NCBI GenBank assembly: GCA_018222915.1
Contig: JAAEZI010000021.1
Span: 1-51,002 of the forward strand
Length of the DNA stretch: 51,002 bases
Direction of reading: 5' to 3'
Source: Algicola sp.
Lineage (GTDB): Bacteria > Bacteroidota > Bacteroidia > Flavobacteriales > Flavobacteriaceae
In this document: piece by piece, positions 7,873 to 42,122 of the stretch
Numbering within the stretch: the first letter of the stretch is position 1
Layout of the letters: every line of letters starts with the position of its first letter
Notes under the pieces: generated by a model
What the model saw: the letters and a program-made list of their open reading frames with translations, nothing else
Database searches by the model: none
What the model was told of the DNA's origin: nothing
Position numbers and translations under genes: made by a program

Positions 7873-8952
7873 CTAGTTGCATGTATCGTTTTTGTAACGA
7901 AGACGGTCACTTTCACCGACACGTAAATCCACTTTTGTTTCAGAACTACTATCATCAATTTCCTGTAAAACCCAATTGTTATTGCATAATGGCAAGCTTG
8001 GAATTTCAACGACTATGGTGATGTTGTTGGCTAAACCTGTGGCGTTCCAAGTTCCATAAACCGTCGTGGACTCCCAATAAACAGACAGGGTGCCGTTTTC
8101 AAAGAAATTGAAAAGATAACCAACATAAGCATCGTCATAATCAACATCATTACGTTCAAGCTTATCCACATACCAATCGGAGCAATTGGTTAAAATATCT
8201 TGCAACAGTAGAGGCGTACAATCGTCACAGTCGTCGTCGTTATAATCATAATCATCGTCCTCGTCGCAAACATCTATATTTTGTTCAATGATTGTCTCGA
8301 GTTCAAAAAAGTCTGATATACTAAATATAGAACCATCCGCAATGAAAACGTCTATAGGGAAATTAAGACTAATGAGATCATCACTTTCTATTTGCTCCAA
8401 GAATAGATAAAGTTCATAATCGGTCGTGAATGTTTCAGTATACAGTATTTCACTGTTAGTGTTAAATGCTACTGCAGTCATCGGATAGACAAAATCTAGG
8501 CATTCAATATCAGCGTCAAACTCATTTTCGCCATTACAATTGTTAGAATAATTGTTAAGTTCAGAATAATTAGCAATAGTAATCTCTGAAAAGTCATTCA
8601 ATACAATGATGATAGGGAATAGAATTTCCAAACTATCATAATCATCATCAAATGCGTCAAAAATGGATTCAATTACTAAATAATCTTCCTCTGTGTTCAC
8701 AGTAACTTCGATATCATTCGCAATAACTGTTACAGGAAGGGAAATATTAAAACAATTGGAATTATCAATGATGTTATCGTTGGATCCGTCATTCATCGTA
8801 GTTCGCTGCATCAATTGCGCAATATTAGAATTCGCTTCCAAGGTATCTTCTGGAGCCGTCTGTATAGACTCCATTTCTTCTTTTCTGCAGGCCGTAGATA
8901 GAACTAAGAGCAAAACGCTAAAAAGAATATATTTTGTTATGGGTGTTTTCAT
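7873..8952 (-). CDS. Acidic lipoprotein with duplicated domain and lipocalin-like C-terminus
   Basis: 359 residues, function not recognised. A lipoprotein signal places the lipidated Cys in LSTACRKEE at about residue 22. Two similar segments of about 75-80 residues follow: one starts CFNISLPVTVIAND and ends ITIANYSELNNY, the other starts CLDFVYPMTAVAFN and ends FSISDFFELETI. They look like a tandem duplication. Next is a very acidic linker (CDEDDDYDYNDDDCDDC). The last 100 residues (WYVDKLERN, FFENGTLSVYW, GTWNATG) have the strand pattern of lipocalin-like domains of flavobacterial lipoproteins. The Asp-rich linker could bind Ca2+, which is untested. It is monocistronic. Confidence 0.75.
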   Translation of the reverse strand: MKTPITKYILFSVLLLVLSTACRKEEMESIQTAPEDTLEANSNIAQLMQRTTMNDGSNDNIIDNSNCFNISLPVTVIANDIEVTVNTEEDYLVIESIFDAFDDDYDSLEILFPIIIVLNDFSEITIANYSELNNYSNNCNGENEFDADIECLDFVYPMTAVAFNTNSEILYTETFTTDYELYLFLEQIESDDLISLNFPIDVFIADGSIFSISDFFELETIIEQNIDVCDEDDDYDYNDDDCDDCTPLLLQDILTNCSDWYVDKLERNDVDYDDAYVGYLFNFFENGTLSVYWESTTVYGTWNATGLANNITIVVEIPSLPLCNNNWVLQEIDDSSSETKVDLRVGESDRLRYKNDTCN

Positions 8953-18569: not shown

Positions 18570-18577
18570 TATTTTTG
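18570..18577 (+). promoter_or_regulatory. Candidate -7 element for the riboswitch-btuB transcript
   Basis: TATTTTTG matches TAnnTTTG and would start the RNA near 18584, just before the conserved riboswitch begins. The -33 region is weak. Confidence 0.4.
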
Positions 18578-18587
18578 CAATGAATTT

Positions 18588-18760
18588 AGGTTCTACTAGG
18601 CGTAACCTTGTAGATTAAAAGGGAATCTGGTGCAAATCCAGAACTGTTCCCGCAACTGTAAGCTATTCAGCTTGTTATTACCTTCAATGTCACTGGAAAT
18701 ATAACTCCGGGAAGACCAATAGCAAGACGCAAGTCAGGAGACCTGCCAAATTCAAACATA
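18588..18760 (+). promoter_or_regulatory. Cobalamin (B12) riboswitch
   Basis: Contains the family core GGTGCAAATCCAG (18629-18641), CTGTTCCCGCAACTGTAA just after it, and the B12 box (GACGCAAGTCAGGAG, then ACCTGCC; 18726-18747). These are diagnostic of the adenosylcobalamin aptamer. It lies directly upstream of the btuB-like receptor gene, whose expression should fall when cobalamin is abundant. A weak hairpin at 18767-18787 (AAACTTT / AAAGTTT) lies between aptamer and start codon and may be the expression platform. There is no T-run, so control is more likely translational. Confidence 0.95.
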
Positions 18761-18830
18761 GAAGTCAAACTTTCGGGATAAAAGTTTTGGTGTGATTAGT
18801 CATGCTATTCCGAGTATTTTAAACATTATA

Positions 18831-37263: not shown

Positions 37264-38562
37264 TTAAGTCATCGCTAATAAAAACGTTTTTAAATCCTCA
37301 TAGTTGCTTATTTTTTTAGACACTTTGTTTTTATCCATAACAGCTTTTATTTGGTCTGGAAGTTCCATAGCTGTATGGATGGTTTCTTCAACGACGTCCA
37401 AGAATTTTGTGGGATGCGCTGTTTCTAAAAACACACAATGTGCATCAGGATGCTTCTCTGCATACGCTTTGCATCCTAAATACCCGATGGCACCGTGAGG
37501 ATCAGCTATATAATGATATTGTTCATAAATTTCAGTCATAGCAGCTTTAGTCTCATTATCTGAAAAACTGAAGGAGGATAAGTTGTTTTGCAATAGCTCA
37601 AAATTATGTTGGTATATTTCCTGAATTCGGATGAAGTTACTCGGATTCCCAACGTCCATCGCATTACTGATGGTCTGAATAGATGATTTCGGTATGTAGT
37701 GCTTTGTTTGAAGGTATTCGGTCACGACATTGTTAGCATTATTCGCTGCGATGAAATGTTTAATGGGCAATCCTAATTGTTGCGCCATCATTCCGGCACA
37801 AATATTTCCGAAGTTACCACTAGGAATAGAAAAAACAATGTCTTCATACTTTCGTTGCAGCTGCTTGTAAGCAAACATAAAATAGAACATTTGTGGAAGC
37901 CATCGCGCCACGTTGATGGAATTGGCAGATGTCAATTGCATATGATCCGTAATGCTTGTGTCTAAGAACGCCTTTTTGACCATATCTTGGCAATCATCAA
38001 AGACGCCATCTACTTCTAGGGCCGTAATATTTTTACCTAAAGTTGTTAATTGCTTTTCTTGAATAGCACTCACTTTACCTGACGGATAAAGAATCACGAC
38101 ATTTACGCCTTTGACACCAAGAAATCCATTAGCGACAGCACCTCCAGTATCACCAGATGTTGCTACAAGTACCGTGACGTCTTCGTTATTGTTTTCGTTA
38201 AAATAGCCGAGACATCGCGCCATAAACCGTGCACCAACATCTTTAAATGCCATCGTTGGTCCATGAAACAACTCTAAGGTTGAGATTTGTTCGTTTAATG
38301 GTACCACAGGAAAATCAAAATTTAAAGTGTCCTCTACGATCGCTTTTAACGTTGGCTCAGGGATGTCTGGTAGCACAAATTGTTTGATGGCTTCAAATGC
38401 AATTTCTACAGGTGATAATTGGCCAATTTGTTCAAAAAAAGTAGCAGGTAAAGGCTTGATCTCACTAGGAAAATATAAACCTTTATCAGGAGCAAGCCCT
38501 TTAATTACGGCATCTTTAAAATTGGTATTAGGTGCTTGTTTATTGAGACTGTAATAATTCAT
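37264..38562 (-). CDS. thrC: Threonine synthase
   Basis: 432 residues. PLP enzyme converting O-phosphohomoserine to threonine. PLP-lysine in TMAFKDVGARF (about residue 106), ATSGDTGGAVANGFL and IPSGNFGNICAGMMA are typical. The N-terminus (MNYYSLNKQAPNTNFKDAV) matches the thrC group. Last gene of thrA-thrB-thrC: its ATG lies immediately after the thrB stop codon. No strong terminator was seen after it. Confidence 0.97.
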   Translation of the reverse strand: MNYYSLNKQAPNTNFKDAVIKGLAPDKGLYFPSEIKPLPATFFEQIGQLSPVEIAFEAIKQFVLPDIPEPTLKAIVEDTLNFDFPVVPLNEQISTLELFHGPTMAFKDVGARFMARCLGYFNENNNEDVTVLVATSGDTGGAVANGFLGVKGVNVVILYPSGKVSAIQEKQLTTLGKNITALEVDGVFDDCQDMVKKAFLDTSITDHMQLTSANSINVARWLPQMFYFMFAYKQLQRKYEDIVFSIPSGNFGNICAGMMAQQLGLPIKHFIAANNANNVVTEYLQTKHYIPKSSIQTISNAMDVGNPSNFIRIQEIYQHNFELLQNNLSSFSFSDNETKAAMTEIYEQYHYIADPHGAIGYLGCKAYAEKHPDAHCVFLETAHPTKFLDVVEETIHTAMELPDQIKAVMDKNKVSKKISNYEDLKTFLLAMT

Positions 38563-39483
38563 CTATAGTATGTTTACACCTTTCGTATTAATACGTGATA
38601 CGTAAATCTCGAAAGCAATATTGGTTTGAGAATATATGTTTTTGATGGCAGAAGCGACATTTTGAGCCACTTTTTCTCCATGGCACAAGCTGAAAATTGA
38701 AGGTCCAGATCCCGAAATCCCACAACCTAAAGCACCTTGTTTTAAAGCAGCTTCTTTTACGTTTTGATAGTGTGGAATTAACTGACTGCGATAAGGCTCA
38801 ACCACAACATCTTGGAGAGATTGACTAAGTAAGTCATAATCACTCGTGTGCAAGGCATGAACAAAACTTCCCACATTTGACCATTGCGTAATGGCATTTT
38901 TCAATGGAATAGCATCGGGTAAGATAGCTCTAGCTTCTGATGTTTTAATCTCTATTTGAGGATGAATAATTACAGCAAACAAATTTTTAGGTGTTGGTAA
39001 CTGAAGTACCTTTAAAGGTGCAACTGATTTTACAAGGGTAAAACCACCAAAAAGGGCAGGAGCAATATTATCGGCATGCTCGCACTGACTTGCCAAAGCT
39101 TCACCCTTCATAGCGAAATAAGTGAGTTCAAGCTTGTTATAAGGTCTACCCAACAACTCATTTATTCCAAAAACACTACCAACAGCACTGGCAGAACTAC
39201 TTCCGATACCACTACCTGGTTTAATGCGTTTATATATTTCAATTTCAAAACCACAATCAGGTTTCGCGTCTTCTAGAAGTGCTAAAGCTGAGACACCAGC
39301 AACATTTTTTTCAATCTCGAAAGGAAGATCAAATCCGACAATCTTTGTGATTTTCAATCCTTTTTCTTTGGTTTTTTTAATCACCATTTCGTCTCCAATT
39401 GAATCAAGGCAAAACCCTAGTACATCAAAGCCACAAGAGACATTAGCCACTGTTGCTGGCGAAAAAAGTTTGATATGTTCCAT
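38563..39483 (-). CDS. thrB: Homoserine kinase
   Basis: 306 residues, GHMP kinase family. The ATP-binding motif PGSGIGSSSASAVG is intact near residue 90; the N-terminus IKLFSPATVANVSCGFDVLG and GCGISGSGPSIFS near residue 250 match ThrB. Phosphorylates homoserine for ThrC. It starts within the thrA stop codon (TAATG, one shared base) and ends directly before thrC, so translation of the three is tightly coupled. Confidence 0.97.
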   Translation of the reverse strand: MEHIKLFSPATVANVSCGFDVLGFCLDSIGDEMVIKKTKEKGLKITKIVGFDLPFEIEKNVAGVSALALLEDAKPDCGFEIEIYKRIKPGSGIGSSSASAVGSVFGINELLGRPYNKLELTYFAMKGEALASQCEHADNIAPALFGGFTLVKSVAPLKVLQLPTPKNLFAVIIHPQIEIKTSEARAILPDAIPLKNAITQWSNVGSFVHALHTSDYDLLSQSLQDVVVEPYRSQLIPHYQNVKEAALKQGALGCGISGSGPSIFSLCHGEKVAQNVASAIKNIYSQTNIAFEIYVSRINTKGVNIL

Positions 39484-41927
39484 TATTTGTTTCCTGTTCT
39501 TATGATGTCGGCAAATAGTCCTGATGCCGTCACATCTGCACCAGCACCAGCCCCTTTTATAATCATAGGTTGGTCGGGATAGCGCTTCGTGAAATACATC
39601 ACAATATTATCTTTTCCTTCCAGATTGTAAAAAGGATGTCCTTCAGGGATTTCTTTTAAGCCTACTTTAGCATTTTCACCATCAAACTCAGCGACGTACT
39701 TCAATTGACAACCGTTAGATTTTGCTGAGTTATACAGTTGCTGGAAATGTGATTCATCTTGTAGTAAACTCTGATAAAAATCATCTACAGATCCGCTGTT
39801 CAAGTTGCTTTCAGTTAAAAAGGGATTGTTCTCAATATCTTCAAGTTCCATTGTTGTTCCACTTTCACGAGCTAAAATTAAAATTTTTCTTGCAACATCA
39901 ACACCACTCAAATCAATCCGAGGATCAGGTTCCGTATAGCCTTCTTTTTGAGCTTGTTTGACCACATCGTGAAATTTGGTGGTGGCGTCAAAGTTATTGA
40001 AAACAAAGTTGAGACTACCAGATAAAACAGCTTGGATAGAGGTGATTTTGTCACCTGAAGCTACTAAGTTATTCAGTGTGTCAATCACAGGCAAACCAGC
40101 GCCAACATTCGTTTCAAATAAAAAAGGCGCGTTGTATTTGCGAGATAATTCTTTTAATTCATTGTAGTTTTCAAAAGTACTAGAACAAGCAATTTTATTA
40201 CAGGCCACTACAGAGATACTTTCTTTGAGATAGTTGGCATACAATTTTGAAACGTCCTCATTGGCAGTAATGTCCACAAAAATACTGTTTCGTAAATTAA
40301 ATGCTTTCGCTTTTTCTAGGAAGCCATCGAGTGAAGCGGTTTCTCCTTTGCTAAGTTGCGATTTCCAATCTTTTAATGAGAGACCGCCATCGTCAAAAAT
40401 CATGGTTCTGGAATTGGAAAGTCCTACGACTTTAAGATTAATTTTTAATTGCTCTTTGAGGTATTTCTTCTGTTGTTTAATTTGCTCTACTAAGCGTTCA
40501 CCAACATTTCCAACACCCGTTATGTAAACATTGAGTTGTTTGGTTTTATCTTCAAAAAAGCGTTCATGCAATGCATTTAGTGCTTTTTTGACATCTTTTT
40601 CTGCGATCACTGCTGATATGTTTTTTTCTGAAGCCCCTTGTGCGATGGCTCTGATATTAATATTGTTTTTACCCAATGTACTGAACATTTTCCCACTGAT
40701 GCCTTGGTGACTCTTCATCTTGTCACCTACTAATGCTACAATCGACAAATCCGTTTCCACAATAATTGGATCGATTTTGTGCAGCGATATTTCATTGTCA
40801 AAAATCTCATCTATGGCTGATTTAGCTTGTAATGAGTCGTTGATGTCGATACCAAAACAAATAGAGTGTTCCGAAGAGGCCTGTGTGATAAAAATCACGT
40901 TAATTTTTTCTTGAGCTAAAGTTTCAAATAGACGCTTGGAAAATCCTGGGATGCCCACCATGCCATTTCCCTGAAGTGTTAAAAGCGCAATATTGTTGAT
41001 GTTGGAAATCCCTTTAACGGCTCCTGTATTGCCATTCAAATCATTAGAGATTATGGTGCCTGCGGCTTGAGGCTCCAATGTGTTTTTAATATGAATTGGA
41101 ATTTCTAAATCTAACACTGGCTGTACGGTTGGAGGATAAAGGACTTTAGCACCGAAATGAGAAAGCTCCATGGCTTCCTGATATGAGAGGTGCTTGATAG
41201 GAAACGCCTGTTTCACTATTTTTGGATTCGTCGTATACATGCCACTAACATCTGTCCATATTTCTAGTCGATTAACTTGTAAGGCAGCTGCGATTATTGC
41301 CGCTGTAAAATCTGATCCGCCACGACCAAGCGTTGTTTGCTCTCCAGATGCCGATTTCGCAATAAATCCAGGAAGAATGGTAATAGCTTGTTGGGCATCA
41401 GAAAAATAGGCTTTGATGTTGGCATTTGTTTGCTCATAAAGCACTTCCGCTTTGGTAAAGTTTGAATTGGTTACGATGAGTTCCTGACTGTTTTTTCTCA
41501 GGCAGTTCATTCCTCTACTTTTCATCGTTTCAGAAATAATAAAAGAGGAAAGAAGTTCGCCAAAACTCACCAATTTATCTGAGGTTTTAGGAGATACTTC
41601 ATTGATGAGAAAAATACCATCGAGAAGCTGTTTTAATGCCTCCAGTTTTTCATCGAGCTCCTCTACAACTTTCTTCTGATGAGAAGGGATCAATTCTGAA
41701 ACAATGTCGTGGTGCTTTTTCGAAATGAATGCATATTCCAATTGGTAGTCCAAGTCTTTATTTTGAGCAAGTTCACCAGCTTTGAGTAGTTTATCCGTAA
41801 TGCCACCAACCGCAGAAACAATACAAATAACCTTTTCGGTTTTTGAATAATTTTCTAAGATTTCTATGACATTATTTATATTTTGTGCTGAACCTACTGA
41901 GGTTCCTCCAAATTTTAAAACATTCAT
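39483..41927 (-). CDS. thrA: Bifunctional aspartate kinase / homoserine dehydrogenase I
   Basis: 814 residues, the normal length for the fusion. N-terminal aspartokinase (MNVLKFGGTSVGSAQNINNV; TLGRGGSDFTAAIIAAAL), two ACT-type regulatory regions around residues 310-460 (IALLTLQGNGMVGIPGF, IVALVGDKMKSHQGISGKMF), then homoserine dehydrogenase with GVGNVGERLVEQ (NAD(P) binding, about residue 471), CNKIACS, FETNVGAGLPVIDTLNNL and YTEPDPRIDLSGVDVARK. First step and branch step toward Thr, Met and Ile. Upstream lies a leader ORF rich in Ile/Thr/Met codons (42009-42101). Confidence 0.97.
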   Translation of the reverse strand: MNVLKFGGTSVGSAQNINNVIEILENYSKTEKVICIVSAVGGITDKLLKAGELAQNKDLDYQLEYAFISKKHHDIVSELIPSHQKKVVEELDEKLEALKQLLDGIFLINEVSPKTSDKLVSFGELLSSFIISETMKSRGMNCLRKNSQELIVTNSNFTKAEVLYEQTNANIKAYFSDAQQAITILPGFIAKSASGEQTTLGRGGSDFTAAIIAAALQVNRLEIWTDVSGMYTTNPKIVKQAFPIKHLSYQEAMELSHFGAKVLYPPTVQPVLDLEIPIHIKNTLEPQAAGTIISNDLNGNTGAVKGISNINNIALLTLQGNGMVGIPGFSKRLFETLAQEKINVIFITQASSEHSICFGIDINDSLQAKSAIDEIFDNEISLHKIDPIIVETDLSIVALVGDKMKSHQGISGKMFSTLGKNNINIRAIAQGASEKNISAVIAEKDVKKALNALHERFFEDKTKQLNVYITGVGNVGERLVEQIKQQKKYLKEQLKINLKVVGLSNSRTMIFDDGGLSLKDWKSQLSKGETASLDGFLEKAKAFNLRNSIFVDITANEDVSKLYANYLKESISVVACNKIACSSTFENYNELKELSRKYNAPFLFETNVGAGLPVIDTLNNLVASGDKITSIQAVLSGSLNFVFNNFDATTKFHDVVKQAQKEGYTEPDPRIDLSGVDVARKILILARESGTTMELEDIENNPFLTESNLNSGSVDDFYQSLLQDESHFQQLYNSAKSNGCQLKYVAEFDGENAKVGLKEIPEGHPFYNLEGKDNIVMYFTKRYPDQPMIIKGAGAGADVTASGLFADIIRTGNK

Positions 41928-41963
41928 TGGTAGTATTTTAATAAAATGCGTTGCTGATTAAAT

Positions 41964-41978
41964 TCCTATATCATAGGA
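41964..41978 (-). other. Short hairpin between the thr leader ORF and thrA
   Basis: TCCTAT / ATAGGA, a perfect 6-bp stem with a 3-nt loop, about 40 nt before the thrA ATG. A second weak self-complementary element (ATTTTATTAAAAT) lies closer to the start. No GC-rich stem with a T-run is visible, so a classical intrinsic attenuator is not evident by eye. Confidence 0.45.
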
Positions 41979-42008
41979 TCACTGTGGTACTGAAGAAATG
42001 ATAGACGA

Positions 42009-42101
42009 TTAACCCCTAAGGGTCATAATGCCAAAAGTCATCCCAAAAATCATGGTGATGCTATTCTGTAAAGATATTTGTACTTGATGTGACATTTTCA
42101 T
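42009..42101 (-). CDS. Candidate thr-operon leader peptide (30 residues, Ile/Thr/Met-rich)
   Basis: Minus-strand ATG at 42101 to TAA at 42009. The first half is ordinary (MKMSHQVQISLQNS); residues 15-27 read ITMIFGMTFGIMT, so 9 of 13 are Ile, Thr or Met, followed by LRG and stop. These are end products of the pathway that ThrA starts. The ORF begins about 14 nt after a -7 element and ends 81 nt before thrA. By analogy to thrL of enterobacteria, ribosome stalling on scarce Thr/Ile/Met tRNAs would raise operon expression. The analogy is inference; the codon content is directly seen. Too short for ordinary gene callers. Confidence 0.65.
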   Translation of the reverse strand: MKMSHQVQISLQNSITMIFGMTFGIMTLRG

Positions 42102-42114
42102 AGACTATACCTTT

Positions 42115-42122
42115 CAAAAGTA
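42115..42122 (-). promoter_or_regulatory. Candidate -7 element of the thr operon
   Basis: Minus-strand TACTTTTG matches TAnnTTTG; start near 42108, leaving a leader of about 7 nt before the leader-peptide ATG. No clear -33 TTG. The remaining 41928-42254 intergenic DNA holds this leader and, on the plus strand, a 15-codon ORF (42211-42258) overlapping the nnr start. Confidence 0.45.

Follow-up and report, generated by a model that had tools for sequence, protein, structure and literature searches.

The window, a 51,002-nucleotide stretch of DNA from Algicola sp., carries the thrABC operon on its minus strand, and a short ORF lies ahead of thrA (Table 1). The ORF runs from 42101 to 42009 on the minus strand and reads MKMSHQVQISLQNSITMIFGMTFGIMTLRG*; its stop codon ends at 42009 and the thrA ATG is at 41927, which leaves the gap of 81 nt described in the initial annotation. 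The run of Ile, Thr, and Met residues claimed there was confirmed (9 of the 13 residues of ITMIFGMTFGIMT). Counted over 15 residues, the run of the window leader holds only 3 Thr and 3 Ile, which speaks against a Thr/Ile sensor. An ORF of 20–45 codons with an Ile/Thr/Met run on the same strand appeared in 3 of 5000 dinucleotide shuffles of the 327 nt intergenic region, and 2 of the 243 window ORFs of 20–45 codons (both strands) have a comparable run. The sole other window ORF of this length with 9 of 13 Ile, Thr, or Met residues lies at 8190–8273 on the minus strand.

Table 1. Features of the thrABC locus in the window
Feature	Position	Strand	Remark
Element TAnnTTTG, presumably of the promoter -7 type, TACTTTTG	42115..42122	-	13 nt before the first ATG
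Leader-peptide ORF	42009..42101	-	Probable start 42095, 28 aa
Hairpin P0 within the ORF, CATCaCCA / TGGGATG	42039..42060	-	Seen in the predicted window fold; its counterpart covaries in 15 other leaders
Hairpin P2 (ACCC..GGGT core) at the ORF end, adjoining and partly over the stop codon	42010..42025	-	Comparative
C-rich, G-poor untranslated stretch from leader stop to thrA	41928..42008	-	C 17, G 9 of 81
Hairpin P3, TCCTAT-GAT-ATAGGA, no T-run after it	41964..41978	-	Folding z over 77 loci
thrA, aspartate kinase / homoserine dehydrogenase, 814 aa, first operon gene	39483..41927	-	Orthologues found
thrB	38563..39483	-	Named by reading the sequence
thrC	37264..38562	-	Named by reading the sequence

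When we aligned 14 leaders from the window's genus, the invariant ATG was the second one of the window ORF, at 42095, which makes MSHQVQISLQNSITMIFGMTFGIMTLRG (28 aa) the probable peptide. The ORF of 30 codons in the initial annotation therefore exists, but its translation probably begins at 42095 and covers 28 codons. The sole length change within the ORF in this alignment is of 3 nt, and the sequence checks proposed in the initial annotation did not contradict it. We conclude that the short ORF is real and very probably a leader-peptide gene of the thrABC operon.

A search for ThrA in 120 genomes of the family (Flavobacteriaceae) gave a match in 119. We read the upstream regions of 90 loci with close matches, from 89 genomes and mostly one per genus (the 90th locus is a second copy in the window's own assembly), and left out 30 genomes that had distant matches only. 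Together with 20 further loci from the window's genus, this gave 110 thrA upstream regions. A detector that required an ATG ORF of 12–70 codons ending at a CCC/GGG hairpin 50–215 nt before thrA was positive in 77 of the 110 loci (65/90 in the family set and 12/20 in the further genus set), compared with 1 of 2200 dinucleotide shuffles. This count is a lower bound: L092 was scored as a miss yet has a leader, and the hairpin is present at seven further undetected loci (L032, L037, L049, L053, L062, L080, and L083); at three of these (L049, L053, and L062), the leader frame lacks an ATG start. Over the last 15 codons before the hairpin, the 77 leaders contain 30% Thr and 46% Thr plus Ile. The identification of the ORF as a thr-operon leader peptide is supported by the preservation of its Thr/Ile content and its position at these loci, and most of the upstream regions that we read carry such an ORF. 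The TAnnTTTG element that had been noted upstream of the ORF is also there, and it stands at a comparable place in 68 of the 77 leader loci.

No such leader was found in seven loci of the genus (L097, L098, L100, and L107–L110), which suggests that the thr leader has been lost at times within the genus. The second thrA copy of the window's assembly (L031, L113) is 71–72% identical, lies on a 4.8 kb contig, and has no leader; its upstream layout resembles that of genus members L107–L110. This copy perhaps represents contamination (the assembly's contamination value is 5.42%) or an acquired copy.

The GC-rich hairpin into which the leader ORF runs, P2 (ACCC(C)..(G)GGGT), was detected together with the ORF in 77 of the 110 loci. 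In 76 of the 76 loci that have ACCC in the 5' arm, the ACC is an in-frame Thr codon; the 77th locus lacks ACCC. Thr is most dense in the six codons that precede this one, being present in 30–50% of loci at each position from -6 to -1. After the P2 Thr codon, translation of the rest of the arm and the loop gives P-L-G, L-W-G, L-R-G, R-stop, or other sequences, and the leader stop codons begin between 7 nt before and 12 nt after the end of the P2 GGG. Because P2 is read as such varied peptide tails, it is the hairpin in the RNA that has been kept across these sequences, with the Thr codon at its base, and not the tail of the peptide. The initial annotation reported no GC-rich terminator with a T-run after the ORF; the T-run is indeed missing, but two hairpins had gone unmentioned, the GC-rich P2 where the ORF ends and P3 behind it.

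We found no U-run intrinsic terminator between the leader and thrA in the window, and neither P2 nor P3 is followed there by a T-run. Among the 77 thr leaders, a strict terminator rule was satisfied by one (L038), whereas the same rule identified terminators in 20 of the 21 his leaders and 22 of the 28 trp leaders that we found in the family (in 30 his and 30 trp loci). In these his and trp loci (among L196–L255), leader peptides with HHHH or WWW precede hisG and trpE, and intrinsic terminators lie between leader and gene. The genome of the window itself has both a his and a trp leader, each followed by a terminator (L210 and L244). A looser rule found terminator-like sites in 22 of the 77 thr leaders, 18 of them at P2; the window is not included, and in its genus such sites occur at L002, L093, L102, L104, and L106. 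As most his and trp leaders from the family satisfy the strict rule, the lack of a strong terminator is peculiar to the thr leader and does not reflect how terminators look in this lineage. The doubt raised in the initial annotation about a classical intrinsic attenuator was thus well placed, and we consider it likely that the read-out is something other than an intrinsic terminator. Two family loci, L057 and L065, have a short Thr leader followed by a strong intrinsic terminator. At L057, inspection by eye showed that the stop-codon segment can pair with the 5' arm of the terminator, like a textbook antiterminator.

The stretch between P2 and thrA has a distinctive base composition: C/(C+G) is 0.715, and C exceeds G in 76 of the 77 leader loci. 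The same ratio is 0.49 upstream of the promoter, 0.52 in 30 thrA loci without a detected leader (7 of which have P2), 0.43 before gyrB (30 genomes, with C exceeding G in 5), 0.51 in his leaders, and 0.59 in trp leaders, the trp ones having terminators. The bias is opposite in L057 and L065, where an intrinsic terminator is present (0.32 and 0.27). The C excess is not confined to the thr leaders, however, given the trp value and the fact that some thrA loci are C-rich despite having no detected leader (L098, 0.69; L097, 0.65; L040, 0.65; and L030, 0.62). Because the stretch from leader to thrA is C-rich and G-poor, we regard Rho, whose gene is present in the genome, as the best single candidate for the read-out, albeit a tentative one. 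There are precedents for such control: the leader ORF decides Rho termination in tna and mgtL (PMC5021804), and mdtU is a Rho-controlling leader whose stop codon lies 106 nt before mdtJ (PMC7815308).

As a whole, the 206 nt window leader folds no better than its shuffles (z 0.50); the case for structure is a comparative one. Over the 77 loci, the ORF region with P0 folds better than shuffles (mean z -0.98), as does the region after P2, including P3 (mean z -1.12; p<0.05 in 21%). In 15 Flavobacterium-like leaders, a structure of three helices has 93% paired cells and 9 pairs that are changed on both sides; it was reached by 0 of 500 shuffles on four of five measures and by 24 of 500 on the fifth, and slid versions of it score lower. 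The covariation of P0 and P3 comes from this one group of 15 leaders, within which P2 hardly varies. RNAalifold recovered only P2, without covariation, from the genus alignment and from the T-P-L-G group, and most of the 14 genus leaders show P3 when each is folded singly. We built a covariance model from 73 of the 77 leaders (L003, L045, L051, and L104 were dropped), and it found this site alone in the window's genome at E up to 5, with 150 of 972 candidates scored. Eleven of 13 model-match loci that we examined have no nearby ThrA start and were taken as chance matches.

We also considered P1, a helix that would join the 5' end (GGTATAGACTA) over a long range to the leader-stop segment (TAGTCTATA). 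By eye it is striking in L002, L093, L095, and L106, and over 68 loci the native pairs were more stable than swapped pairs (-8.14 vs -7.20 kcal/mol, 0/10000 permutations). The signal was gone when the 5' side was trimmed close to the start codon and dinucleotide shuffles served as the reference (n=61, mean z 0.01; genus, n=13, mean z -0.88), and we rejected P1 as a general element; it is at most a feature of the genus. In an alignment-free scan of 508 pairs of windows over 76 loci (L104 was left out), the best values involved the thrA coding sequence and were apparently dominated by sequence conservation. The scan gave a hint that the Thr run pairs with the region of the P3 5' arm, and this pairing can be seen by eye in the Flavobacterium-like group (e.g., L019).

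The sequence evidence makes it very likely that thrA is under leader-peptide control by the supply of Thr and Ile, and we hold with good confidence that thrABC has a threonine/isoleucine attenuator that is read out by something other than an intrinsic terminator. In the mechanism that we propose, with Rho as the candidate read-out, ample charged Thr- and Ile-tRNA would let the ribosome pass through P2 to the stop codon and leave. Its departure would expose the G-poor stretch to Rho, which would stop RNA polymerase before thrA or early within it. When Thr- or Ile-tRNA is short, the ribosome would halt at the base of P2, on its Thr codons, where it would cover the Rho loading region or keep it folded, and thrABC would be transcribed. 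Neither the P1 test against shuffles nor the 508-pair scan revealed an alternative pairing that a halted ribosome could switch.

Other read-outs of the same leader have to be weighed against termination by Rho. The position of the ribosome might alter the P2–P3 fold and so affect initiation at thrA or cleavage of the message. The conservation of P3 between leader and thrA is consistent with a translational or mRNA-stability read-out of this kind, as is the absence of a strict terminator from 76 of the 77 leaders, but the 508-pair scan gave no convincing pairing with the thrA start region, and we judge this read-out unlikely. The translational coupling that the initial annotation had offered as an alternative is disfavored by the 81 nt between leader stop and thrA start, which make reinitiation unlikely; against this distance can be set the Bacteroidetes peak of 11–14 bp (PMC4833913). 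Less probable still is that P2 acts as an intrinsic terminator, short and with a poor U-tract, which the halted ribosome would mask. Several genus members have TTTTTAG after P2, and most of the sites found by the looser rule (18 of 22) are at P2; on the other hand, the stem is short, the window has GGGGTTAATCG after the loop, and under the strict rule the thr leaders (1/77) stand far apart from the his and trp leaders (20/21 and 22/28). That the ORF encodes a small functional protein is extremely improbable: although its start and frame are conserved in the 14 genus leaders, there is little conservation of the peptide beyond its Thr/Ile content, the reading of the tail varies while the hairpin stays, and none of four leader peptides has a match in Pfam or NCBIfam.

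A separate question is whether the leader in this genus senses Met besides Thr and Ile, which would match a ThrA that alone serves all three products. Met accounts for 13 of the 210 run residues (6.2%) in the 14 genus leaders and 22 of 945 (2.3%) in the 63 others (Fisher p 0.006), and L092, which is outside this count, also has Met in its run. ThrA searches of the family returned frames of about 1,130 aa in many other genera, which we take to be MetX-ThrA fusions. The matches in 23 genomes of the window's genus comprised thrA (in 22 of 23) and an aspartate kinase of shorter length; a long MetX-ThrA-like frame of this size was not among them, and so ThrA may be the only homoserine dehydrogenase in the genus. 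However, the genus leaders share ancestry and are not independent, the run of 5 of the 14 lacks Met, in L001, L099, and L101 the ATG of GGG-ATG also belongs to a P0 arm, and at the hairpin it is a Thr codon that is invariant. We therefore regard Met sensing as a reasonable idea but not a probable one.

Returning to control by Rho, a broader and more speculative picture can be drawn. In much of the family, and in contrast to the his and trp leaders of this lineage, two elements may have replaced the intrinsic terminator of the thr leader: a stop-codon hairpin that always opens with a Thr codon, and a stretch on which Rho loads. In this new layout, the hairpin would sharpen the stall and Rho would do the stopping, and in one genus, where ThrA is seemingly the sole homoserine dehydrogenase, the code would be widening to Met.

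To place these leaders in a wider context, we surveyed the class, in which ThrA was found at E up to 1e-90 in 21 of 99 genomes, and read 20 upstream regions by eye, 19 of them outside the family. Four loci outside the family have P2-type leaders (L119, L120, L126, and L131), and in the last 90 nt before thrA these show no clear C excess (C/G 11/13, 15/13, 20/20, and 17/14). At L117 and L124, a Thr leader ends in a hairpin of opposite polarity (ACGGG-GTRA-CCCGT). The GTRA loop of this hairpin holds the stop codon (ACGGG-GTAA/GTGA-CCCGT). Thr leaders with terminators are present at L127 and L133, L129 is a weaker case, and no Thr leader was seen by eye in the other 10 of the 19 loci. The variety of leader types suggests that Thr leaders extend beyond the family and that their read-out differs among lineages. 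The upstream regions of ilvD (L135–L164) contain no evident Ile/Val/Leu leader. Within about 200 nt before ilvD, many of these regions share recurrent motifs that we noticed by eye, TTGAATATGATAAAA or GAACATCATA followed by TTGAATTTA, possibly an unknown cis element.

Our search of the open-licence literature found no paper on a thr leader in this group. For Flavobacterium psychrophilum, strong clues for leader-peptide attenuation before amino-acid operons have been reported in general terms (PMC9723704), and the word thrA is absent from the main text of that paper. A study of Bacteroides thetaiotaomicron describes short ORFs in long 5' UTRs that are reminiscent of leader peptides (PMC7366714), and a paper on premature terminators (PMC2965389) has none of five words looked for in it. 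Our results suggest that many amino-acid operons of this group, in which regulation by RNA has been little studied, are under the control of leader peptides. They also reveal a natural contrast within single genomes, between his and trp leaders with textbook terminators and a thr leader without one, which offers a direct way to test how a leader is read out when no intrinsic terminator is present. Such leaders may already be listed in a comparative attenuation study (Lopatovskaya et al. 2010, cited in PMC4833913).

In enterobacteria, the thr leader (thrL, Rfam Thr_leader) has a Thr/Ile run directly before thrA of the thrABC operon. The leader described here resembles thrL in being a short ORF with a Thr/Ile run just ahead of thrA in a thrABC operon, and its mode of action is probably that of a thr attenuator. 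It lacks two features of the classical family for which we tested, an Rfam match and a U-run terminator: at the gathering score, Rfam has no match at the window leader, and a search of 12 loci at E up to 1 gave only two chance-level mir-2 matches, both at L079. (Elsewhere in the window, Rfam identifies a Cobalamin riboswitch, RF00174, with 114.6 bits at 18571–18764 on the plus strand.) Also unlike thrL, leaders of the window type have a hairpin at the stop codon that opens with an in-frame Thr codon. Like the thr leader, the family's his and trp attenuators have, ahead of the operon's first gene, an ORF in which codons for the amino acid made by the operon form a run; they differ from it in their strict intrinsic terminators. 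The leaders at L057 and L065 in the family and L127 and L133 in the class likewise place Thr/Ile codons before thrA, but they have terminators, and L057 and L065 show an excess of G instead of C. As regards the proposed read-out, there is a likeness to tnaC, mgtL, and mdtU, where translation of the leader decides the action of Rho on the untranslated stretch behind it (PMC5021804, PMC7815308); those leaders serve other genes and respond to other signals, and Rho dependence at thrA is a likeness that we infer.
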